The translations under genes and the position numbers were made by a program. Below, piece by piece: positions 1,768 to 58,800 of a stretch of 64,000 nt of DNA. The notes beneath the pieces are model-generated. The model was not told where the DNA came from. It was given only the letters and a program-made list of their open reading frames with translations, and made no database searches. Source of the stretch: Chlorella sorokiniana (taxonomy: Eukaryota; Chlorophyta; Trebouxiophyceae; Chlorellales; Chlorellaceae); the NCBI GenBank assembly GCA_025917655.1, contig CP084618.1, positions 744,001-808,000 of the forward strand, read 5' to 3'. Position 1 is the stretch's first letter; every line of letters starts with the position of its first letter.

Positions 1768-3502
1768 CCCCAGGCCCACGCACCTCAGCGCGCGCAGCGA
1801 GAAGAAGCTGCAGGGCATGTCGAGCACTATGTACTGCAGGTCGGCGGCGGGGTCGTCCCGCAGCACCGCCGTCGCCTGGCCCACCACCGCCGCCCGCGCG
1901 CTCCATCAGCTCCGCCAGCGGCAGGTTCCTGAGGTACACGCCCTCCAGCCTGCGGTACGAGCGGAAGAGAGGGAGCGGCACAGTCGGCAGCGCGGGACGG
2001 CCCGGGTGAAGCAGCCGAGGTAGCCAGGGCGCATGGCAGGGGCTGGCCATGCATCAGACAGTGAGCGGCGGCTGCAACACCCTGGGACCCCCATTTCCCC
2101 ACCACACGAGATGGGACACCCTCTGACCGCCCACACCAGCAACACGAGACCAGAGTCATCCCCTCGACCATCCGCGTGGCCCTGCCCGCGCCGCCGCACC
2201 TGACCACCAGGTTGGGGTCCAGCTCGCCCAGGGGTAGAGCGGGAAGGCGGCCTCTGGCTGGGTGAGGTCGGGGAAGGGGTGGAGGCGGGGGTGCGGTGCA
2301 CCACCAGTCCGCGGGGCGCCAGTAGGCGACGATGGCCTCCACGTCCAACAGCGCCTCCAGCGGCACCGGCGACCATCGCACCTCGTTCTTCTCGCGGTTC
2401 ATGGAGAAGTAGTGGGCGAAGGAGTCGCGGCAGACGGCGGGCGGCAGCACCAGCTCCGCGCCCAGCGAGGCGGCCAGCGCAAAGGCGGCGACGTGGGAGT
2501 AGTGCTGGTTGATGAGGCCGGTGCAGGCGGTGTAGCGCAGCAGCACGCGCAGGCGCTTGCAGGGCCGCCCCTCCGCCCGCCCCTGCTGCAGGTAGTGCTG
2601 CTTGGCCTGGTCCTCGGTCGCGATGCCCAGCTGCCGCAGGTCTGGGTGGTACATCAGGTAGGCCTGCAGGCACGGGAAGCACCAACGATCAAAGCCAAAC
2701 AATCAAAGACTTGACCCTGCTGTACGGCATCAGGGGAATCTCAGAGCTATGACGAGCCACCAAGGATGGACACAAAAGGGTGGGCAGACAAAAACCGAAC
2801 AAGGAGGAGGAATCCAAAGGAAAAGGCGAGAACGTTCAAAGAAGAGGTGGGCGGGGCGGCTGCACAGTTTCAAGCAAAGTGGGGCATGCCAGCAGCCGCC
2901 CCCGTGCAGCCAAGAGGAAGGGCGCAGCGGGCGCCAGCGCAAGCGGCCGCAGGCAGCGTGAGAGCGAGGCAGGCAGCGGCGCCGCCCACCTCCGCATCAA
3001 AGTCTCGCGGCAGCCCTGGGTAGGCCTCCGGCTCGTCTGCATGCTGCTGCTGCTGTCGCTGCTGCCGCTGGCCTGCAGGCTGCGCATCGAGGGCTGCGGC
3101 TGCCCCAGCGCTCCGCTCCGCCGCCGCGCGCCGCAGCGCGCCGCTCGGCGGCCGTGCAGGCTGGCGCCACTGCCCAGCACGGTTATGGACATGCCGCGCT
3201 CGTCCTGGGTGACGGTGGTGGAATGGGTGCGGCCCTGGCGGTCAATCACCAGCTCCGTCACCACGTTGGGCCCCCGGGCGTTGCGCACCGTCGTCGACAC
3301 GATGGTGGCCCCGGCGGCGGCGCCGCCGCTGTGGCAGCGGCAGCAGGCCGCCGGTGAAGACCAGGCAGCGGTAGAGGAGGGTGACGGAGGCCAGCAGGCA
3401 GAGCGTGACCAGCAAGCGGTCCAGGTGGAGCCAGTGGCTGCCGCCCGCAGGGTGCCGGTGCACTGGCGGCTTGCGGGTGGAGGGCAGGGTGGTCGGCAGC
3501 AT
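1..3502 (-). CDS. O-fucosyltransferase-like type II membrane glycosyltransferase (3' end off window)
   Basis: Multi-exon gene read right to left: 3502-about 2990, 2663-2200, 1949-1784, 1578-1402, 1144-1045, 728-634, 442-324, and 56 to beyond base 1. The start is the ATG at 3502. It is followed after about 25 residues by a single hydrophobic stretch (LLVTLCLLASVTLLY), a Golgi-type signal anchor. Conserved blocks include AYLMYHPDLRQLG, HYSHVAAFALAASLGAELVLP, PFPDLTQPEAAFPLY, ADLQYIVLDMPCSFFSLRAL, FNGLHLRIEKDARDW, VVWQGYISTMRSVGFNAST and GFGSSTFSFYLREYRAL. I associate these with the algal/plant O-fucosyltransferase-like family (GDP-fucose donor, HLR motif). The family call is from memory; the fold and membrane anchor are clearer than the substrate. 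The frame must shift by one base at several places (near 3330, 2235, 1465, 690), each inside an otherwise conserved exon, so sequence errors are likelier than a pseudogene. Confidence 0.68.
88..128. repeat. GT-rich simple repeat
   Basis: (GT)n and (GTG)n tract in the last visible intron of the fucosyltransferase-like gene. Confidence 0.75.
1735..1768. repeat. Tandem 12-bp repeat (GGCCAGCCAGCC), about three copies
   Basis: Near-perfect copies follow each other in the intron between exons 3 and 4 of the fucosyltransferase-like gene. Confidence 0.75.
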
Positions 3503-4008
3503 GCTGTTTCCTCTTGTCACGGGACGCGAGCAGGAATTATCAAGGAAGCGCCAAGGGGCGCCACGTCCGGCCAAAGATGGCCATTGGAGATGCAAGGCTA
3601 ACCCTCAGTGGCCGACGGGGCTACAGTGAAAAGCAGATCAAACAGGATTTGCACGGTGAACTGGAGCCTCAAGAGTCGCGGCCAGGGCAGCCTCCAAACC
3701 CTGAGAAGGTGTGCCCGAAAACAAAAGGAAGGCGCAGCACGGCTGGTCCCAATCTTAAATGCAAATCAAACACTGACCTTGCATGGGCTGGCAGCGCCGC
3801 CGGCGGAGGCAGAGGGGCAAATGCAACCTGTACCGCCTGCGTTCTGCTGCTTTCAGCTTGTGACTCCCTGAAGCGAAGCCCAGTCGTACAGGTAGGTATC
3901 GATCCGATCAATTTATTGTTCCCTTGAATTTTGCTACAGTCAGCACTAAACGCTCGTCGCTCTCTCATCTTTGTTGCGAGCATCTCATTCTGGAGATTTA
4001 GGGGTCGT
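3503..4008. promoter_or_regulatory. Divergent intergenic region, shared upstream region of two genes
   Basis: This 506-bp stretch separates the start codons of the left-going fucosyltransferase-like gene and the right-going L21m gene. It must hold both promoters and 5' untranslated regions. It is less GC-rich than the flanking exons, especially at 3620-3990. I see no obvious TATA box with confidence and no further gene. Confidence 0.5.
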
Positions 4009-45632: not shown

Positions 45633-47875
45633 ATGGCGCAGACTGCGCGGACCTGGCGGACCGCCCTTTCCGAGCATTTGCGTCCCGGCGTCTTCAAGTC
45701 GGTCACTTGGAAGTCCATTTGGATCGGACTCGCTGCTTTTATAGCACTGCTTTTGGTCACGCGTGATGTGAACTGGTGAGACGCAGCTACACAGAAATTG
45801 CAAGCTCTCGTCCCTCAGCCTCCCGTTCAGGCTGAGTTTTAGGCTGAGAACTGGTGATCATTAGTTTCATGTTGTTTTGCAGGCGAGTGACGGTCTCAAC
45901 GGTAACAAGCCCAGCAGCGGTGGGTCTGCCTGCCCTCATCCGCCTGCTGGTCCTTTGCGGCTGAATGCTCCGCTGCTGGCACCCTTGCGGTGGAAACGAG
46001 ACAGCTGTCCATGCTGCTGACACCACGTGCCTGTGGTGCAACACCTCCTGTCCTGCATGATCAGCTGCAGGGAGAGGGCAAATCCACCCTTGCAGCCTTG
46101 CGGTCGCCAGCGCACAGCTCTGACGCAGCAGCGGCGGCGCTGGCAGGCCTGGTGCAGCGCTTCCAAGCGGAGCAGCAGCAGTTCTGCAGCGAGCTGGCGG
46201 CCGGCACCCCGCAGCCGGGGGCACGCCGCCAAACGACACCTACTTTGTGCACACCGTCGCGATGGAGCACGGCGGCGTGCAGAGCAGCGTGGCCATGTAT
46301 GCGCTGAGTGGGGAGGACATTGTGAGCCACGACATCCAGACCAAGGGCTCTTGGGAGCTGGCCGAGACCCGGGAGGTCCTGACAGGCTGCAAGAGTGGCG
46401 AGAGATGAGAGCCCGGGCCGGCTGGGTGTCGCACCCAGCTTTGAGCATCCCGCTTGAAGTTTCAAGAGCGCTCCGCCCCCACACACACACACACACACCC
46501 CACGACGCACCCACGCGCCCCATTCACTAGCAACGCGAGCATACAAACAGAGCACCCGCCGCTTTCACCAAGTCGCCTGACCGCGCCCACTGCAGATGCA
46601 TGTCATGGACAGCAGCGACGTGGTGTTTGTGGATGTCGGCGCCAACATCGGCTGGCACTCGATCTATGCCGCAGCGGTGGGCTACACCGTCCTGGCCTTC
46701 GAGCCGATGCTGAAGAACATCGGCGCCGTGCGGCGCACGCTGTGCGAAAACTCTGAGCTGCAGCAGCGCCTGACGCTCGTCAGCAAGGTTGGAAGCCTCG
46801 CGCGCGGGGCGGGGTGGGGTGGGGGTGGGGTGGGGGGCAGGGGGCGGGGGCCTCTTCACAAGCCTGCACACGGGCTCCCCTGTGTGCTACAGCGCTGTGC
46901 TTGCTGCCGTGCAGGGCCTGAGCCACAAGCCCGCCTCGTGCAAGTTCCTGGTCAGAACCAACAACCGGGGCAACGGCGTCGCGGTGTGCGGCGCCGCCGA
47001 GGTGAGCAAGTGGCTGGCGCCGGGAGCGCGTATGAGGAGGCGGGCGAGTTCGAGCTGACCACCCTGGACGAGGTGTTGGAGGGCTCCATGGGCGCGCTGG
47101 AGGGGCGGGTGGCCGCCATGAAGGTGGACGTCGAGGTGCGCCCGCCCCTGGTCCCTGCCAACAGCGGCACCGACGGCTCTCCTCGCTGCCTCTGCCTCTG
47201 CCTGTTGCAGCGCCACCTGGCTTGCATGGGTGGGCGTGGAGCTGCACGGAGCTATCGCATGCACAGCGCCCCTGAGCAGTTCCCCACGTGTCGCGTGCTG
47301 TGCAGGGATTTGAGCCGCATGTGAGCGACGGTGGTGAAGCACGTGGCCGGCCTGCAGGCTGGCTCCTGCCGCCATCCTGCCCTGCCCGCGCTCACGCGGC
47401 TGCTGTGCTCTGCAGGTGTATGCGGGCGGCCGGCGTTTCTTTGACGTGGTGAAACCGCAGTACATGATGGCGGAGGTGAGGGCGTGACGGCGGTCGGGCA
47501 CGCAGCTCAGTTGGCAGCCTTCTTGCTGGCCCTCAAGAGCGCCCGGCCTGCCGACTGCCTGGTGTGCTCGGTGTGCAGGTGAACCAGGAGTACCCGGGCA
47601 GGGTGGTGCCGCTCACAACCCTCAAACTGGTGAGCAGGCGGGGCTGGGGGTGCCGGCCTGCAGCCGCAGCGATCCTGCTGGTCCGACCCTCCTGCGGCTC
47701 ACAGCGCCGTGATCGCACCATGCTGCAGTATGACGAGCTGGGCTACCGCGTGCACATGGACAACTTCCACGGCCACTACGTCAGCCCGCTTGAGTTCAAG
47801 CAGTACACAGTGGAGAACATGAAGGCGGGCTCCCTGCTCAACATCTACCTTACACGCAAATCGAGAAGCAGATGA
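45633..47875 (+). CDS. FkbM-family methyltransferase with N-terminal membrane anchor
   Basis: Exons 45633-45775, 45883-45901, 46071-46375, 46596-46787, 46915-47134, 47307-47321, 47416-47475, 47579-47629 and 47705-47875. The N-terminus has a basic cytosolic tail and one membrane segment (WIGLAAFIALLLV), a type II layout usual for Golgi enzymes. The SAM-binding core DVVFVDVGANIGWHSIYAAA with VLAFEPML is diagnostic of FkbM-like O-methyltransferases. It is followed by FELTTLDEVLEG, MKVDVEGFEPHV (the conserved D-x-EG-x-E motif) and a C-terminal LGYRVHMDNFHGHYVSP. By analogy it would methylate a sugar or glycan in the secretory pathway; the acceptor is unknown. The DVEGFEP motif is assembled through a 15-base exon (47307-47321). 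One-base frame changes occur near 46215 and 47025. Its stop lies only 69 bp from the stop of the facing Cys-rich gene. Confidence 0.85.
46482..46499. repeat. (CA)n microsatellite in the FkbM-type gene intron
   Basis: About eight consecutive AC units lie inside the intron before the SAM-binding exon. Confidence 0.8.
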
Positions 47876-47944: not shown

Positions 47945-49845
47945 TCAGGCATGGCGCGTGCCTGCCAGCTGCTCCAACAGGCCGCGATTTGGGGCCGCGA
48001 AGCGAGGCTGCACCGGGGTGCCCCGCCGCGCACCGGCTGCCCCCAGCCGGCCCGCCTGCGCTGCGGCTGCCACCAGCGCGGCGGCAGCCGCGGTGCGGCC
48101 AGCAGCGGCGGCGGAGCGCGCGCCGACGCTGTACCCGCAGCGCTGCAGCGCGTTGTAGTAGGCCTGCTTCTGTGCGGGATCGGTGTATGAGTCGGCGACC
48201 ATCTGCTTGCACGCCGGCGAGGTGGTGGCGAGCATGGCGCAGCAGGTGCTGCTGCCCACGGCGGCGGCGGCGCCCAGGCAGAACGGCTCGGTGGTGACGC
48301 GGTACGTGTCCAGGCACAGCGCGCTGTCGGGCCGCGGCACCTCCTGCGCAGGGTCCAGCGCGGGCAGCGAGATGCCGCACTCGGCAGCCTTGGACGCGCG
48401 CTGCAGCGGGGCGGGGAGGGCGGCGGGCAGCCGCGGGCAGCCTCAGGCCCGGCTCATGCGTGCCATAGCGGGGGTGCAGGCGTGGCAGCGGCAGCCGCAA
48501 AATGGACCGCTGGCATGTGGGCTGCCTGGCAAGGGCGACGGCCATTCGAAGCTGCCGGCGCATTCAACACACATGCGCACTCCTCCCACCAACCACCGCC
48601 ACCGCCACTCACATCCATTCTGCCATTTCTGCACTGTCCGGGTCGGCGGTGTCGGACGCATAGCTGGCCGCCAGCACCGCCAGGCACTCGCCGCCCAGGC
48701 CCTCCAGGCTGGGGCAGCACACGGCGTCGTCGGCGCACAGCGGCAGCACCGTCCACGTGAAGTCGCTCACGCACTTCTCGGGGTGTGCTGATGCCGCTGC
48801 CGCCGCTGCCGGCAGGTGGGGGAGGCGGCCGGCAGAACAGAAGCCGATGCGGGCGAGGCGACCGGGGGCTGGGGGCGGAGGGCGGTCGGGGCAGAGGGCA
48901 TGGCTGGCGCCGCGGGGGTGGAGGGGGTGGTGGCTGCTGGCAGGGGGATGCCGCAGCTGGTGAGGGTCGACGTGCTGCAAGGGCGGCATGGGGGGCAAGC
49001 AGGGTGAGTGCTGGCTCTTGGCATGGAGGGCATGGGGCCATTCGGGGCCAGCGGTGCAGGCCAAGAAAAGAGCAACAATTCTGCCAACAAGGAACAGCAC
49101 GTCGAACCCCCAATCCACTCCTCCCCGCAGCCACTCACAAGGCGGTGTACAGCTGTGCGTACTGCGGGTCAGCCGCCATGCCTGCCGCCAGGTAGGCCAG
49201 GCACTGGCTGCCCAGGTCGGCGTGGGCGGCGCAGCAGTCCTGGGAGCCGGCCTGGCAGGTGGGGATGACAACCTGGTTGAAGGCGTCGATGCACTGCTGC
49301 TCGGGGTGCTCGCAGGCACAGTGCTGCCGCCGGTGCTGCCGCCGGTGCTGCTGCCAGTGCTGCCGCCAGAGGTGCTGGGGGAAGGTGAAGCCGCAGCTCT
49401 CAAACACTTGGATGCTGCAGGCGCAAGGCAGGGCAGGCAGCATGCTCAAGTTGATAACCAAAATCCAGGACCCTGTAACACAGCAGTGACACACATGAAG
49501 CATGCCAATCAACGCGCACAAGCCAACCCCTCAACCCACTCAACAGCTCCAACCAACAACAACTCACGCTGAGTTCACGGTCTGCTGGTCGGCGGTGGCA
49601 TACGCGGCGTCCATCACCTCGCGCCAGCAGGGGTCGCCCAGCACATGCAGGCCCGTGCAGCACGTCTGGGTGCTGCCGGCGCAGGTGGAGGCAGACTGCA
49701 GCCAGGCGTTGAAGCCGTCCAGGCACGAGACGGCGCTGGTGCCACCGCTGCCAAACTGACGCAGATGGCGGGCGTGCGCGGGGCTGGTGACCGCAAGCAG
49801 CGCCAGCAGCGCCGCCAAGAACAGGCGAGGGGAGCAGGAGGGCAT
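47945..49845 (-). CDS. Secreted modular Cys-rich protein, tandem copy A (four six-Cys modules)
   Basis: Four exons: 49845-49568, 49414-49139, 48974-48613 and 48400-47945, about 456 residues. The start MPSCSPRLFLAALLALLAV is a signal peptide cut near AHA. Four modules share the pattern C-x(11-13)-C-x(5-11)-CC-x(9)-C-x(about 26-30)-CG, for example CIDAFNQVVIPTC then CC then LGSQC and SCGIPLP. Modules are joined by Ser/Gly/Thr- or Pro/Ala/Thr-rich linkers like those of wall glycoproteins. Introns fall between the fifth cysteine and the final CG of a module. I do not recognise the family; the layout suggests an extracellular or wall protein. In the linker after module 1 the frame is shifted by an extra base (49378 region) and restored by a missing one (49310 region), compared with copy B. 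The last intron joins in a frame that needs one base adjustment. Confidence 0.78.
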
Positions 49846-50934
49846 GGCGGGGTGTGCAGCAAGGCGGGGCAGAAGGGGGACTCTCCTTGAGGAGTGCCGG
49901 GGAAGCGTCGGTGGGCGGCAGGCAGGGGAGGCTTGCAGGTGTGGAGGCAATGTGTGCTGAATAAGGACTGGCATGGCCGGTCATCGTCTTAAGTACCCGA
50001 TGGCACCGCGGTGCTGCAAGGACTTCCCCAGCGCTTCGCCCAGGCAAAGCTGCCGCACAGCTTCCGAGCGCTCCGCCTTTCCGCCAAGCGCCCTGTACCG
50101 CGTTACCGGACTCCACATGAGTCCCTGGGGCTTAGGGCAGCTCCAGCAGGGCTGGCCGCCCGTGCAGGTCGCCGAACAAGCGGTGTTGTTGGGGCCGAGC
50201 AGGCTGGGAGGCCTGTCACTCTTTTCTCACGAATGTTTTGATATGCACGGTGGCACCAGGTGCTGACCATGCCGCGAACGGGCTGCCATCATGCGGGACA
50301 TGTGCCGCCAGTCTGCTGCCGCCTGCTCTACCAACTTGCCATTCAGGCGCCCACCGACCAGCAACAACTTGACATTCAGTCAGAGTCTCTCGGCAGCAGG
50401 CGGGTGAATGTTTCTTGTCTCAAGACCCTGCACGACACTTGGGGGTTTAGTCCTGCAACCTTTGCAGTCTGCTGTAGCTGGCGTTAGAGAGGTGCGGGGC
50501 AGTGCCAGCAAGATTCAGCTCTGGCACTTCAAGGAGCCCCCGGCTACTCTGGCAGTCCGCATCGTTCGCATGATGTGGGTGTTCCTAGAAGTCAAAAATC
50601 ATGCCAGACCTGCTTTAAAAGCTGCCGGCAAGGTTGGTGCCACTCCTGCTGAAAGGCAAGCACATCTCGCCACAAAAGCTTGATGGCATTGTTAGGGTAG
50701 CATTTGCCTGTGTGCAGTCCGATTTGTGGAATGTTACACAGCAGTAGGCAAGGCAGTGATTATGAAGCTGCATATATGCATTGGTTAAGTTGAAGGTTGG
50801 AATGGTCACATGTGCATCAGCTTGGCGGTTGGCTTATCAAGTAGAGAATCAGGGAGAATCAAGAAAAGAGCATTGCTTTGAAGCTGGGTCGTCAAAGGTA
50901 TTAGGGTACAAGCACATCCAGGCACAGTCAGCCC
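49846..50934 (-). promoter_or_regulatory. Conserved upstream region of copy A / spacer to copy B
   Basis: This 1,089-bp spacer starts with a block nearly identical upstream of all three copies. CTTAAGTACCCGATGGCACC lies 143 bp before the ATG in copies A and B and 144 bp before it in copy C. Such constant spacing fits a core promoter. The distal part (50490-50740) holds 3' sequence of copy B with a minus-strand TGTAA at 50734-50738. Confidence 0.55.
50734..50738 (-). terminator. TGTAA poly(A) signal of copy B
   Basis: TTACA on the plus strand lies about 197 bases beyond the copy B stop. Copy C has the same motif at the same distance (53277-53281). Confidence 0.5.
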
Positions 50935-52408
50935 TCAGGCATGGTGCGTGCCCGCCAGCTGCTCCAGCAGGCCGCGATCCGGGGCCGCAAAGCGAGGCTG
51001 CACCGGGCTGCCCCGCCGCGGGCTGGCTCCCCCAGCTGGCCCGCCTGCGCCGCGGCTGCCACCAGCGCGGCGGCGGCCCCGTCGGCGGAGGGCCTCGCCA
51101 CAGCGGAGCGGCCAGCAGCGGCGGCGGAGCCGGGAGTGAGGGTGTAGCCGCACCGCTGCAGCGCGCCCGCAAACTCAGCGTGCTGAGCGGGGTCGGTGTA
51201 CGAGTCGGCGATGCTGCCCAGGCACTCGGCGTCGGTGGCGGCCAGCATGGAGCAGCAGAGGGAGCCCATGGCGGCGGCGGTGGGCCCCACGCAGAACGAC
51301 TCGGTGCTGGCGCGGTACAGGTCCAGGCACGAGTCAAACTCGCCCGCGCCGCCAGCCACGGTGGAACCGCCAGCCGATGGGGGTGCGGGGACGCTGGCGG
51401 GCGTGGGCGGGGCCGTGGCGGCGACGGGGCTGGTGGGCAGGGCGGGCGCGGCGACGCCTCCAACGCCGACGGGCATGCTGGGGGTGGAGGGGGTGGTGGC
51501 TGCCGGCAGCGGGATGCCGCAGCTGGTGAGGGTCGACGTGCTGCAGGGGCGGCATGGGGGCAAGCAGGGTGAGGGCTGGCTCTTGGCATGGAGGGCATGG
51601 GGCCATTCGGGGCCAGCGGTGCAGGCCAAGAAAAGAGCAACAATTCTGCCAACAAGGAACAGCACGTCGAACCCCCAATCCACTCCTCCCCGCAGCCACT
51701 CACAAGGCGGTGTACAGCTGTGCGTACTGCGGGTCAGCCGCCATGCCTGCCGCCAGGTAGGCCAGGCACTGGCTGCCCAGGTTGGCGTGGGCGGCGCAGC
51801 AGTCCTGGGAGCCGGCCTGGCAGGTGGGGATGACAGCTTGGTTGAACGCATCGATGCACTGCTGCTCGGGGGTGCTCGCAGGCACAGTGCTGCCGCCGGT
51901 GCTGCCGCTGGTGCTGCTGCCAGTGCTGCCGCCAGAGGTGCTGGGGAAGGTGAAGCCGCAGCTCTCAAACACTTGGATGCTGCAGGCGCAAGGCAGGGCA
52001 GGCAGCATGCTCAAGTTGAACCAAAATCCAGGACCCTGTAACACAGCAGTGACACACATGAAGCATGCCAATCAACGCGCACAAGCCAACCCCTCAACCA
52101 ACTCAACAGCTCCAACCAACAACAACTCACGCTGAGTTCACGGTCTGCTGGTCGGCGGTGGCATACGCGGCGTCCATCACCTCGCGCCAGCAGGGGTCGC
52201 CCAGCGCATGCAGGCCCGCGCAGCACGTCTGGGTGGTGCCGGCGCAGGTCGAGGCGGACTGCAGCCAGGCGTTGAAGCCGTCCAGGCACGAGGCAGAGCC
52301 GGTGCCACTGCTGCCAAACTGACGCAGATGGCGGGCGTGCGCGGGGCTGGTGACCGCAAGCAGCGCCAGCAGCGCCGCCAAGAGCAGGCGAGGGGAGCAG
52401 GAGGGCAT
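50935..52408 (-). CDS. Secreted modular Cys-rich protein, tandem copy B (three six-Cys modules)
   Basis: Three exons: 52408-52131, 51979-51704 and 51540-50935, about 386 residues. Signal peptide and first two modules match copy A closely. Exon 3 encodes a long Pro/Ala/Thr/Val linker and a last module (CLDLYRASTESFC, LCC, AEC, RCGYTL) equivalent to module 4 of copy A, so module 3 and its intron are absent. The C-terminal tail, Ala-rich and ending LLEQLAGTHHA, is reached only after a one-base shift near 51030, where B reads GGGGGAGCC and A reads GGGGGCAGCC. If the base is truly missing, the protein runs on in another frame past this stop. The linker reading frame (SGGSTGSSTSGSTGGST) is intact here, unlike in A and C. 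Confidence 0.77.
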
Positions 52409-53476
52409 GGCGGGGTGTGCAGCAAGGCGGGGCAGAAAGGGGGACTCTCCTTGAGGAGTGCCGGGAAGCGTCGGTGGGCGGCAGGCAGGGGAGGCTTGCA
52501 GGTGTGGAGGCAATGTGTGCTGAATAAGGACTGGCATGGCCGCTCATCGTCTTAAGTACCCGATGGCACCGCGGTGCTGCAAGGACTTCCCCAGCGCTTC
52601 GCCCAGGCAAAGCTGCCGCACAGCTTCCGAGCGCTCCGCCCTTCCGCCAAGCGCCCTGTACCGCGTTACCGGACTCCACATGAGTCCCTGGGGCTCTAGG
52701 TCAGCTCAGACAGGGCTGGCCGCCCGTGCAGGTCGCCGAACAAGCGGTGTTGTTGGGGCCGAGCAGGCTGGGAGGCCTGTCACTCTTTTTTTCACGAATG
52801 CTTTGATGCGGTTGGTGACAGCAGGTGCTGACCAGGCCGCAAACGGGCTGCCTTCATGCGGGACATGGCCGCCAGCACCGTGCCGCCTGCACCAGCAACT
52901 TGACATGCAGTCAAAGTCTCTCGGCAGCAGGCGGGTGAAAGCTGGCAATGTGTCCTGTCTCAAGACCCCCTGCGCGACACTTGTGGGTTCAGTCCTGTAA
53001 CCTTTGCAGGCTGCTGTAGCTGGCGTTAGAGAGGTGCGGGGCAGTGCCAGCTGCAAGATTCAGCTCTGGCACTTCTAGCAGCCCCGGCTACTCTGGCAGT
53101 CCGCATCATTTGCCTGATGTGGGGTGTTCTTACAAAGTGATGCCAGACCCGCATAAAGAGCTGCCGGCAAGGTTGTCGCCACTCCTACTGCTGACAGGCC
53201 AGCATATCTCGCCACAGCAGCTTTGATGGCATTGTTAGGGTAGCGTTTGCGTATGTGCAGTCTGCTTTGTAGTATGTTACACATCCGTAGGGAAGCAGTG
53301 ATTGTGAGGCTGCATGTACAGACAGGGTGAATCGAATGCTGGAATGGTCAACATGTGCATCAGCTTGGCGGTTGGCTTATCAAGAGAGAATCAGGGAGAA
53401 TCAAGAAAAGAGCATTGCTTTAAAGCTGGGTCGTCAAAGGTATCAGGGTACAAGCACATCCAGGTACAGTCAGCCC
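52409..53476 (-). promoter_or_regulatory. Conserved upstream region of copy B / spacer to copy C
   Basis: This 1,068-bp spacer is homologous to the spacer above copy A. The CTTAAGTACCC block begins at 52551. The distal part holds the 3' region of copy C with a minus-strand TGTAA at 53277-53281, about 196 bases beyond that gene's stop. Confidence 0.55.
53277..53281 (-). terminator. TGTAA poly(A) signal of copy C
   Basis: TTACA on the plus strand lies about 196 bases beyond the copy C stop, matching the position of the same motif behind copy B. Confidence 0.5.
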
Positions 53477-54951
53477 TCAGGCATGGTGCGTGCCCGCCAG
53501 CTGCTCCAAAAGGCCGCGATCGGGGCCGCAAAGCGGGGTTGCACCGGCGTGCCCCGCCGCGCGCCGGCTGCCCCCAGCTGGCCCGCCTGCGCCGCGGCTG
53601 CCACCAGCGCGGCGGCGGCCTCGTAGGCGGAGGGCCTCGCCACAGCGGAGCGGCCAGCAGCGGCGGCGGAGCCGGGGGTGAGGGTGTAGCCGCACCGCTG
53701 CAGCGCGCCCGCAAACTCAGCGTGCTGAGCGGGGTCGGTGTACGAGTCGGCGATGCTGCCCAGGCACTCGGCGTCGGTGGCGGCCAGCATGGAGCAGCAG
53801 AGGGAGCCCATGGCGGCGGCGGTGGGCCCCACGCAGAACGACTCGGTGCTGGCGCGGTACAGGTCCAGGCACGAGTCAAACTCGCCCGCGCCGCCAGCCA
53901 CGGTGGAACCGCCAGCCGATGGGGGTGCGGGGACGCTGGCGGGCGTGGGCGGGGCCGTGGCGGCGACGGGGCTGGTGGGCAGGGCGGGCACGGCGACGCC
54001 TCCAACGCCGACGGGCATGCTGGGGGTGGAGGGGGTGGTGGCTGCTGGCAGCGGGATGCCGCAGCTGGTGAGGGTCGACGTGCTGCAGGGGCGGCATGGG
54101 GGCAAGCAGGGTGAGGGCTGGCTCTTGGCATGGAGGGCATGGGGCCATTCGGGGCCAGCGGTGCAGGCCAAGAAAAGAGCAACAATTCTGCCAACAAGGA
54201 ACAGCACGTCGAACCCCCAATCCACTCCTCCCCGCAGCCACTCACAAGGCGGTGTACAGCTGTGCGTACTGCGGGTCAGCCGCCATGCCTGCCGCCAGGT
54301 AGGCCAGGCACTGGCTGCCCAGGTTGGCGTGGGCGGCGCAGCAGTCCTGGGAGCCGGCCTGGCAGGTGGGGATGACAGCTTGGTTGAACGCATCGATGCA
54401 CTGCTGCTCGGGGTGCCTGCAGGCACACTGCTGCCGCTGGTGCTGCCGCTGGTGCTGCTGCCAGCGCTGCCGCCAGAGGTGCTGGGGAAGGTGAAGCCGC
54501 AGCTCTCAAACACTTGGATGCTGCAGGCGCAAGGCAGGGCAGGCAGCATGCTCAAGTTGATAACCAAAATCCAGGACCCTGTAACACAGCAGTGACACAC
54601 ATGAAGCATGCCAATCAACGCGCACAAGCCAACCCCTCAACCAACTCAACAGCTCCAACCAACAACAACTCACGCTGAGTTCACGGTCTGCTGGTCGGCG
54701 GTGGCATACGCGGCGTCCATCACCTCGCGCCAGCAGGGGTCGCCCAGCGCATGCAGGCCCGCGCAGCACGTCTGGGTGGTGCCGGCGCAGGTCGAGGCGG
54801 ACTGCAGCCAGGCATTGAAGCCGTCCAGGCACGAGGCAGAGCCGGTGCCAGCGCTGCCAAACTGACGCAGATGGCGGGCGTGCGCGGGGCTGGTGACCGC
54901 ACACAGCGCCAGCAGCGCCGCCAAGAACAGGCGAGGGGAGCAGGAGGGCAT
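53477..54951 (-). CDS. Secreted modular Cys-rich protein, tandem copy C (three six-Cys modules)
   Basis: Three exons: 54951-54674, 54520-54246 and 54082-53477. Nearly identical to copy B in coding, intron and flanking sequence. Exon 2 is one base shorter than in B: the run before the second module has four C where B has five (minus strand, near 54410). The frame is therefore lost in the Ser/Gly linker and module 2 would not be made as the sequence stands. Exon 3 again encodes the Pro/Ala linker and the last module. A second one-base loss near 53520 (GATCGGGG against GATCCGGGG in B) shifts the tail. Either copy C is a young pseudogene or these are sequence errors like those elsewhere. Signal peptide and first module are intact. 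Confidence 0.72.
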
Positions 54952-55420
54952 GGTGGGGTGTGCAGGAAGGCGGGGCAGAAAGGGGGACTCTCCTTGAGGA
55001 GTGCCGGGGAAGCGTCGGTGGGCGGCAGGCAGGGGAGGCTTGCAGGTGCGGAGGCAATGTGTGCTGAATAATGACTGGCATGGCCGCTCATCGTCTTAAG
55101 TACCCGATGGCACCGCGGTGCTGCAAGGACTTCCCCAGCGCTTCGCCCAGGCAAAGCTGCCGCACAGCTTCCGAGCGCTCCGCCCTTCCGCCAAGCGCCC
55201 TGTACCGCGTTACCGGACCCCACATGAGTCCCCGGGGCTCTGGGGCAGCTCAGACAGGGCTGGCCGCCCGTGCAGGTCGCGAACAAGCGGTGTTGTTGGG
55301 GCCGAGCAGGCTGGGAGGCCTGTCACTCTTTTCACGAATGCTTTAATATGCATGGTGGCACCAGGTGCCGACCAGGCCGCGAACGGGCTGCCTTCATGCG
55401 GGACGTGTGCCCCCAGGCCG
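53477..55420 (-). repeat. Tandem duplication unit C
   Basis: The unit comprises gene C and its upstream block. Similarity to units A and B extends through the 450 bp before the ATG and fades near 55400-55420, which marks the end of the array. Confidence 0.82.
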
Positions 55421-55879: not shown

Positions 55880-58800
55880 CTATGTCAGCAACTTAAACCC
55901 ATTCCTGCTACCGTCGTCATCAGGCCAGTCTTGGTTGTCAAGTGACCCAAGCAGGGCCCTGAGCCGCCGCACAACATCTGCAAAGCCAGGCCGCGCCGCC
56001 TCATCCTGGGCCCAACAATCCCTGCAAAGGGCGAGCCAGCAATCATCACAGGTTATCCGGACAATGAAGTGATGCTCCCTAACACGTACAACTGAACCAT
56101 GCTGCCAGCACACTACTTCCTATGCTCAGAACATAAATCACTAGCGGCGTGACGAACCTCATCAGCACGCAATAGAGAGCCAAAGCTTCATCAGGCAGGT
56201 TGTAAGGCCCCGGCGGCAGAGCAGGTACCTCCAGCCGTTTGCCTCGCTGAACCTCAGCGGCAATCTGCACGTTGGGGATCGCGTTGGGAATCATGAAATC
56301 AGGTAAACTATCAAAAACCAAACCTATGCACATCAGCAAGTGTAATGCGCTTCAGCCTGGGCCCGAAGGCCTAAACACTACCTACCATGGTGGGCGACTG
56401 GCGGCCCCAGGGCAGCTCCCAGGCCAGCAGCTCCCACAGCACGCAGCCAAAGGCAAAGACGTCGCTGGCGGCGGTGGTGCGCCCGCCCCGCAGCACCTCG
56501 GGAGCCTGAAAAGAGGTGGGGTTTGAGCAGCATGACAAGGGTGTAAATGGGTGAGATTGGTCAACGCAGCTCTACGGCTTGGAGTCAGCGCTCGCATGCC
56601 AGTCTCACCAGCCAGCGCGGGTTGGCCGCCCCAACGGAGGACATGTCGTCGGCAGGCTGCTGCACACCCTCCAGGATCTTGGACAGGTTGAAGTCTGATA
56701 CCTGTCGCAAGCAATGCGGCACAACAATCACAACGCTGCTGCAGGTCACATGCTCATGTTGCCCGCTGCACGACAAGCATTGACAGTTCCCCACAGCGTT
56801 CCACCCACCTTCACGTGCCAGTCCTTGTCCACCAGCAGGTTGGGGCTCTTCACGTCGCGATGGATGATGGGCGGCGAGCGGCGGTGCAGGTACAGCAGGC
56901 CGGTGGCGGCGTCCAGCGCCTGCGAGCAAATGCATGGCCACTCAAGAGTTGGCAACTTTGCATTGAGGATTTGCAAAGAGAGATACAGAATGTATCAGAA
57001 AGAGTGTCACTCACCCAGAGGAGGCGCCTTTCCCAGGTCACGCGCGCCGCCACCTCAGGCTGCTGGCGGGCCAGGCGTAGCACATCATACAGCGAACCGA
57101 TGCCGCAGTACTCTGCAGAACGGGAGCACTGTCAACTGCCGACCATTAATGACCTTGGCTGCTCCCTTCTTCAACCCACCCTTGCTTGCCTGTTAGGATG
57201 CAAGGCGGCCTTATGCACAGGCCCATGAAAGTCACCACGTTGGGGTGGCGCAAACCAGAGAGCAACGCAGCCTCCTGCACTTAGTCGGGTGGAGCACAAT
57301 GCAAAGAAATGCACATGAATGTCGGCGCAGAAGTGGCACAAAGGCTGTGTGCAGCCACCAAAGGGGGCAAAGTTATAGTGGGTTTCTTGTGACCGTACCT
57401 CCTGCAGAGCTTGCATGGTTTCTGCAGGCAGCTCAATGTTACCCTCCGCCACCGCCTCTGCACAGCACGTTGGTGACACCAGCTTGAACAACAGTTGGAT
57501 GCTTATGTACTGCAAGCAGCTGTTGGCTAAGCGCGTGCAACCTAAATCGATTGCGCATCCTGGCATGCAGCTTGGCTTTGCAATTAATGCTTGCCTACGC
57601 TTGGAAGAATTTTGACCGCCACTGGCGTCTCGTTCCACATAGCAAGATAAACCTGCTCGGGAGGACATTGGAACAGTTGCGTACATCAATATACACGCAA
57701 AAGAAATCAAATCAGTAAATCAGCAAACAAACCCTCAGCCGCCCTCACCTTGCCAAAGGAGCCCTTGCCGATCAGCCGCTGCAGCTGCAAATCGTCCCAT
57801 TCCACCTGCCACCGCTGCACTTCTGGATGCAGAGCGCCAGAGCTGCGTGCATCGATGGGATCACTCGTTGCCCCGATGCCTCTGACTGGTCGCCTGTGCT
57901 GGGCTGGCGTGGTGGACGGGCCCTTGCCGACGTGGCCATTTGCGTTGAGATGGAGAGGACGTACGGGTCGCTCTCAAGGTGATGATCACTGCACGTCGCA
58001 TGCACAAACAAACCAACTGTGTCATTGCGGGAAGAACGTGAACATGCAGGCAGGATGGCTCGCACCTGGTGGAGGCGGCAGGCCAAGATCCAACTTTGAA
58101 GAGTGCCCCGGAGCCTGACGCTGGGGGAATGAGGAAGCTGTCCACGTCCTTAGAGCTGGCTTTGCCCAGGCTGCAGGACTCTGGGCACATCGGTTGCTTG
58201 CTGAACAACGGTTGCTGCTTGTCAGGCTTGGCCCGGCGCCTCCTCCTCAGCAACACAAGGCCAAGCAGCAGCGCCATGAAGACTGCGAAAACCAACACAC
58301 GCCGACTGTGAGATCATTGGGAACAACAACAGTCAGCCACTCCCCAGGAATCACTCACCAAGGCCGCCCAGAACGCCGCCCACCACAGCGCCAATCGGCA
58401 CGGCGGAGCTCTCGTCGACAGGTGGCGGCGGCATTGGCGCCACACCCGGCACCACCGGCAGCACATTGGCCTGCCCGCTGCCGTTTGCGCTGTGCAGAAA
58501 GCCAAAGGTGCTGTCTTCAGAAGCAATCACTCGAGTGAAGTTCCAAACCCCTGACACAGGGCCTGGCCCAACAAGTTCGTTTATGGCCGCTCTGCCGAGC
58601 TGCTGGGAGCTGTTGTCGCCCCAGCAATAGGTTGTGCTATTCTGCGTGGCGTTGGGCTGCGATACGCCGCAAGTGTGGCTGGACCCGCTGCTGATGCTGG
58701 CAAAGGCAATGCCGCCTGCCACGGGCAATGCATCCCGACTGCGCTCCAATTCGCTGGCGTTGCGCCACGATCCTAGTTGATTGTTGTAGTTTGAGCCCCA

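Follow-up and report, generated by a model that had tools for sequence, protein, structure and literature searches.

To which protein family do the cysteine-rich modules belong that are encoded by three tandem genes of the green alga Chlorella sorokiniana, and what may a chain of such modules do for the cell? The genes lie within a window of 64,000 nucleotides (positions 744001-808000 of contig 13, in a 38.8-Mb genome of 15 contigs), where they follow each other head to tail on the minus strand as unit A (49845->47945), unit B (52408->50928) and unit C (54951->53470; coordinates are those of the window). The initial annotation had described them as three tandem genes for multi-module Cys-rich proteins, with a signal peptide and with linkers made of Ser/Gly/Thr or Pro/Ala/Thr, and had credited unit A with one module more than the others. 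This description stands: there are ten modules of six cysteines in the order C..C..CC..C..C (four in A, three in B and three in C), the N-termini look signal-like (signal peptides were assessed by eye only), and A has an extra exon, with a module at 48615-48776. Helical six-cysteine modules of the prolamin type are familiar chiefly from small land-plant proteins with one domain (lipid-transfer proteins, 2S albumins and EC1). The module of these algal genes very probably belongs to the prolamin superfamily (PF05617/PF00234). The best explanation of the whole, i.e. a multi-module family of that superfamily which spread by exon duplication and supplies wall or lipid proteins, is one that we hold with evenly balanced confidence.

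Placing the six-cysteine module

Compared with Pfam-A, the whole of protein B matched Prolamin_like (PF05617) at 30.2 bits (E 4.9e-7, three stretches; curated cut-off 22) and Tryp_alpha_amyl (PF00234) at 26.4 bits (E 8.5e-6, two stretches; curated cut-off 21.7). The module had initially been considered unplaceable, which can not be maintained with B over both curated cut-offs; a significant match to an established Pfam family, named at the time as a result that would refute the proposal, was thus found with PF05617 and with PF00234. The module sets of three further paralogues scored 35.3, 34.7 and 28.0 bits with PF05617, all over the cut-off, and with PF00234 the second set reached 38.2 bits (E 1.8e-9), the third 13.5 bits (sub-cut-off), the first not being listed. 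When B was shuffled eight times with its cysteines fixed and the other module residues permuted, none of the eight sequences matched either family (one gave a sub-cut-off match to DUF2650), and the Pfam match therefore rests on more than cysteine spacing and composition.

At the level of single modules the signal is weaker. Prolamin_like was recovered with 7 of 14 modules and Tryp_alpha_amyl with 3 of 14 (E<=1, mostly under the cut-offs), and an earlier set of 12 mostly incomplete modules gave 8/12 and 1/12, respectively, at E<=10. The four last modules, taken with their tails, matched each family once, and module 3 of A alone had no match in Pfam-A. Relatives were sought in another protein collection (jgi), where a full-length search was swamped by low-complexity words (one match among 7994 candidates scored) and profile searches yielded 5 of 7995 and 12 of 2258 candidates. 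Among the 17 distinct proteins found, two (P0014 and P0017) are the window's own; 10 of the 17 were tested, with Prolamin_like matched by four and Tryp_alpha_amyl by one, none over the cut-off, and neither family by five. NCBIfam gave no match, and a genome search with LTP_2 (PF14368) gave none either, but its controls were equally silent and the search is hence uninformative. Judged by these profiles, the placement is firm at the level of the whole protein and weaker for single modules, and the alga has a real gene family in which a six-cysteine variant of the prolamin superfamily takes multi-module form.

An alignment of 14 modules, which diverge to as low as 18% identity with the first module, retains C1, the CC pair, C5 and C6 throughout (14/14), with C2 present at a shifting position. 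The place of the CXC motif holds one cysteine only, and each module has six cysteines and lacks the eight-cysteine motif (8CM). In profile searches of the PDB, the best solved structure for an early profile was a 2S albumin (E 0.0085); for the profile of 14 complete modules, an unrelated toxin (E 0.079) ranked ahead of 2S-type albumins (E 0.12-0.13). We take this toxin, the neurotoxin MeuNaTx-5 (E 0.11 and 0.079), as a chance match, the CC pair not being included, and likewise the hydrophobins (E 0.68 and 2.2), for which some 15 positions were covered.

The predicted structure of one module consists of four main helices, with a predicted local distance difference test (pLDDT) score of 82. In a VIA structural comparison Ara h 2 came first, with weak scores; the top matches listed include Ara h 2, Ara h 6 and Mo-CBP4, and among the 50 matches listed 13 are plainly 2S albumins, the soybean hydrophobic protein, DIR1 or non-specific lipid-transfer proteins (nsLTPs). 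A second model had Ara h 6 as its first structural match, and Foldseek had no prolamin-superfamily entry among its 50 matches listed. The models thus lend support, albeit weak, to the notion that four main helices are bundled in each module, as in 2S albumins and lipid-transfer proteins. 2S albumins have eight cysteines and are cut into two chains. The likeness to these albumins and to the alpha-amylase/trypsin inhibitors lies in the PF00234 cut-off being passed by B and by one paralogue set, whereas the eight cysteines and CXC motif of those families, as well as the weak structural scores, set the algal module apart.

Exon units and the fixed intron

The three units share one scheme, in which the first exon encodes the signal-like N-terminus and module 1, and the second exon supplies the last cysteine of module 1, a linker and module 2, a scheme that recurs in the next exon. 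Cys6 accordingly sits in the following exon for every module except the final ones. B and C close with module 3 and a tail, and A has one extra exon and one extra module. The linkers are of low complexity, i.e. Ser/Gly/Thr or Pro-rich (Pro/Ala/Thr in exon 3 of B). The features are as follows.

49568..49845, minus strand: exon 1 of unit A, which codes for the signal-like N-terminus and for module 1 except its Cys6
49139..49414, minus strand: exon 2 of unit A, with the Cys6 that completes module 1, a linker in which the frame shifts and then returns, and module 2
48613..48974, minus strand: exon 3 of unit A, with the Cys6 that completes module 2, a linker with a frame change, and the extra module 3 (48615-48776)
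47945..48400, minus strand: exon 4 of unit A, with the Cys6 that completes module 3, a linker, intronless module 4 (48125-48319) and the C-terminal tail; junction as in jgi protein P0004
52131..52408, minus strand: exon 1 of unit B, which codes for the signal-like N-terminus and for module 1
51704..51979, minus strand: exon 2 of unit B, with the Cys6 that completes module 1, a Ser/Gly/Thr linker and module 2 (51706-51867)
50928..51540, minus strand: exon 3 of unit B, with the Cys6 that completes module 2, a Pro/Ala/Thr linker, intronless module 3 (51138-51332) and the tail
54674..54951, minus strand: exon 1 of unit C, which codes for the signal-like N-terminus and for module 1
54246..54520, minus strand: exon 2 of unit C, with the Cys6 that completes module 1, a linker that changes frame in this assembly but is open in P0009, and module 2 (54248-54409)
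53470..54082, minus strand: exon 3 of unit C, with the Cys6 that completes module 2, a linker, intronless module 3 (53680-53874) and the tail

The family comprises at least seven genes with 22 modules: besides the three units of the window, contig 12 carries three genes and contig 7 a single one. Weak matches on contig 5, contig 3, and contigs 1 and 3 are left out of this count; reading through the contig 5 place and the first contig 3 place revealed no convincing module.

Contig 12, near 96.4-97.5, 116.5-117.6 and 119.5-120.7 kb: three paralogues
Contig 7, near 629.9-632.4 kb: one paralogue

An intron lies within 17 of the 22 modules, the intronless ones being the last modules of A, B, C and two contig-12 genes, and each gene has two or three introns and three or four modules. 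All 17 introns are in phase 2 and begin with GTGAG after the second codon base. For 16 of them there is an AG acceptor that leaves the junction open and by which exactly six residues separate Cys6 from the split codon (11 of the 16 have further open acceptors upstream or nearby, and the one before the conserved stretch was chosen); for the remaining intron, in module 3 of A, there is no open junction in this assembly and the six-residue spacing is seen in P0004. The exon unit, i.e. the end of one module, the linker and most of the next module, is thus of phase 2-2 and can be duplicated in frame, which would explain the extra module of A. The uniform phase and the near-uniform spacing point to modules having been multiplied as phase 2-2 exons, and module number would have been raised by duplication of such exons.

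The sequence supports the initial view of tandem genes for secreted-looking, Cys-rich proteins of several modules, and the genome holds more members of the family outside the window. In the contig-7 gene, the linker that joins modules 1 and 2 consists of an Asp-rich repeat and Pro/Glu-rich repeats; at this locus (L033:2954-3188 and 3420-3588) we observed a 36-bp repeat array coding for the Pro/Glu-rich peptide, and the Asp-rich repeat. Elsewhere in the genome, a gene for the gamete fusogen HAP2/GCS1 gave four matches on contig 4 (347544-350307, L044-L046), by which a sexual cycle is possible, and chlorophyll a/b-binding protein gave 41 exon-level matches. Adjacent to the tandem units, the gene at 46581-47875 (plus strand) has by eye the look of an FkbM-type methyltransferase, its raw frames being without a Pfam match, and 56382-56753 (minus strand) appears by eye to be part of a protein kinase gene, the single frame examined being without a Pfam match. 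A sigma-70 promoter scan was disregarded as meaningless for a eukaryote.

Reading frames and the mosaic of unit A

Only unit B has an uninterrupted reading frame in this assembly (388 residues), and even there the last ~35 residues are in a different frame from the tail that is common to A and the relatives. Unit A, one contig-12 gene and the relatives P0002 and P0005 share the tail motif F-x-AP-x-[RK]-x-L-x-x-QLA; for unit B it is seen in P0003, but in this assembly it lies in the other frame. Unit C changes frame in its exon-2 linker; unit A loses and regains the frame in its exon-2 linker, changes it again in its exon-3 linker and likewise has an exon 3/4 junction that is not open. The contig-12 and contig-7 genes also change frame in linkers, and such changes fall in C-rich linker stretches of several genes (A and C in the window; L031, L032 and L033). 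Proteins of the jgi collection are open across such places (P0003, P0004, P0007, P0009, P0011 and P0013), among them exon 2 of C (P0009), the tail of B (P0003) and the exon 3/4 junction of A (P0004); no open reading across the exon-2 and exon-3 linkers of A was seen among the relatives' proteins. As the frame changes sit in C-rich linkers where jgi proteins are open, gene models from this assembly need care, and we take most of the changes to be assembly slips or strain differences. Since the other collection is open across some of them, we do not accept that A and C are dead genes.

Units B and C repeat with a period of ~2542 bp. In a global alignment the two 2542-bp units agree at 2399 positions (95.2% of aligned bases), differ at 122 and have 42 gap positions, with 94-100% identity per 100 alignment columns from about the transcribed start to the gene end and lower values upstream. 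The near-identity over 2.54 kb that had been noted is hence confirmed. The idea that unit A is older is only partly right. From ~50182 to 48912 (promoter, exons 1-2, introns 1-2 and the start of exon 3) its identity to B and C is 92-100% per 100 columns, and only the block that follows, with the extra exon and the last module, is divergent (50-73% where alignable, ~48912-48090), after which the 3' end returns to 86-94%. The sequence shows unit A to be a mosaic of near-identical and divergent stretches.

48090..48912, minus strand: block of unit A divergent from B and C, with near-identical flanks on either side

The coding modules tell the same story. Between A and B, module 1 is 94% and module 2 is 96% identical, as against 76-80% with relative P0016 and 89% with P0012; for the last modules, identity is 55% between A and B and 83% between B and P0002. 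Should the relatives be orthologues from a single lineage, A and B would have had their 5' parts homogenised or re-duplicated after a split that the last modules predate. The tandem units may thus have been partly homogenised by gene conversion. Modules 1-2 of A and B show few changes, with synonymous divergence (dS) of 0.054-0.086 and nonsynonymous divergence (dN) of 0.016-0.025; the last modules show a dS of 0.368 and a dN of 0.394 (14 synonymous and 45 nonsynonymous changes), and a contig-12 pair a dS of 0.041 and a dN of 0.014 (5 and 5 changes).

Possible roles at the algal surface

The prolamin superfamily often binds lipids. The proteins would be secreted and located in the cell wall or zygote wall, each module would hold a hydrophobic ligand (a wall lipid or algaenan precursor) or a wall partner, the linkers would be glycosylated, and the presence of several modules would give avidity or cross-linking. 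A wall/lipid role of this kind we propose tentatively, as falling just short of an even chance; the genes may form a dosage- or diversity-driven surface or wall family, as initially suggested.

Known systems offer partial parallels. Hybrid proline-rich proteins (HyPRPs) have a single, C-terminal domain. They share a Pro-rich, low-complexity stretch that adjoins an LTP-like domain, but are treated in PMC9832785 as an 8CM family. According to the same source, green-algal nsLTPs were first reported in 2023, from 13 green algae, as single eight-cysteine domains, with one or two genes per alga and eight in Coccomyxa; CrLTP2 is described there as binding long-chain fatty acids and appearing in late zygotes (PMC9832785). 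These proteins (types AI/AII; CrLTP1 and CrLTP2) resemble the present family in their signal peptide, CC pair and helical Cys-rich domain, in having introns within the domain and in a head-to-tail gene pair in Chlamydomonas, and differ in their single 8CM with CXC and the one or two genes of most genomes (PMC9832785), as against six cysteines without CXC, three or four modules and at least seven genes here. We found no description of a six-cysteine multi-module algal family among the titles and abstracts listed in a literature search, largely outside subscription journals.

A structural wall glycoprotein, in which the modules serve as disulfide-held spacers and binding knobs without a lipid ligand and act through glycosylated linkers, is possible though doubtful. 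Both the Ser/Gly/Thr and Pro-rich linkers and the Asp-rich and Pro/Glu repeats of the contig-7 linker would suit it, but the frequent lipid binding reported for the superfamily (PMC9832785) speaks against it.

Signalling in the manner of EC1, i.e. secretion by gametes or zygotes and a part in mating recognition or fusion, seems unlikely. EC1 proteins, which act in this way in flowering plants, are marked by egg-cell expression, by two signature motifs and by a Trp behind both Cys1 and Cys5. The best Pfam family, whose cut-off is passed by B and three paralogue sets, includes EC1 (ECA1 gametogenesis-related), described as having six cysteines, an intronless gene and mostly one domain (PMC8702097). 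The central CC pair is shared, and a Trp follows Cys5 in 4 of 14 modules, namely the module-1 rows; moreover, the genome carries HAP2/GCS1, the fusogen that EC1 is reported to mobilise in Arabidopsis (PMC12069490). Set against this, a Trp after Cys1 is found in none of the 14 modules, the algal genes have three or four modules and introns within them, and EC1 is by description specific to flowering plants (PMC12069490). We give only a slender chance to the broader idea that a six-cysteine, prolamin-like module of the EC1 type predates land plants and was here, beside HAP2/GCS1, multiplied through phase 2-2 exons into multi-module surface proteins for gamete recognition or zygote-wall formation.

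Defence or enzyme inhibition, with modules acting as protease/amylase inhibitors or antimicrobials like some PF00234 proteins, is improbable as well, and so is its corollary that the near-identical copies would supply dosage and the divergent block of A variety. The PF00234 match and the equal divergence of the A and B last modules at nonsynonymous and synonymous sites would agree with it; an inhibitory loop was not identified, however, and modules 1-2 change little.

Several observations weigh against the placement itself. Six-frame genome searches gave three matches with PF05617 (one over the cut-off, none in the window) and two with PF00234 (none over the cut-off), perhaps because single exons are short, and sub-cut-off PF05617 matches also occurred in 2 of 14 prokaryote controls. 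In addition, the structural scores are weak and tied, the Pfam stretches are short and lie around CC...C, and the intron place differs from that of land-plant nsLTPs, described as after the last Cys (PMC9832785). The last three points would suit convergence, i.e. an unrelated small helical six-cysteine module that merely resembles the superfamily, which we nevertheless judge quite improbable in view of the failure of all cysteine-preserving shuffles to match and of the four diverged paralogue groups over the PF05617 cut-off.

Taken as a member of the prolamin superfamily, the Chlorella family would provide an outgroup for that superfamily, namely an alga with a six-cysteine, multi-module family and one fixed phase-2 intron, and with it a concrete gene set for dating the origin of the superfamily's wall-lipid and fertilisation roles.

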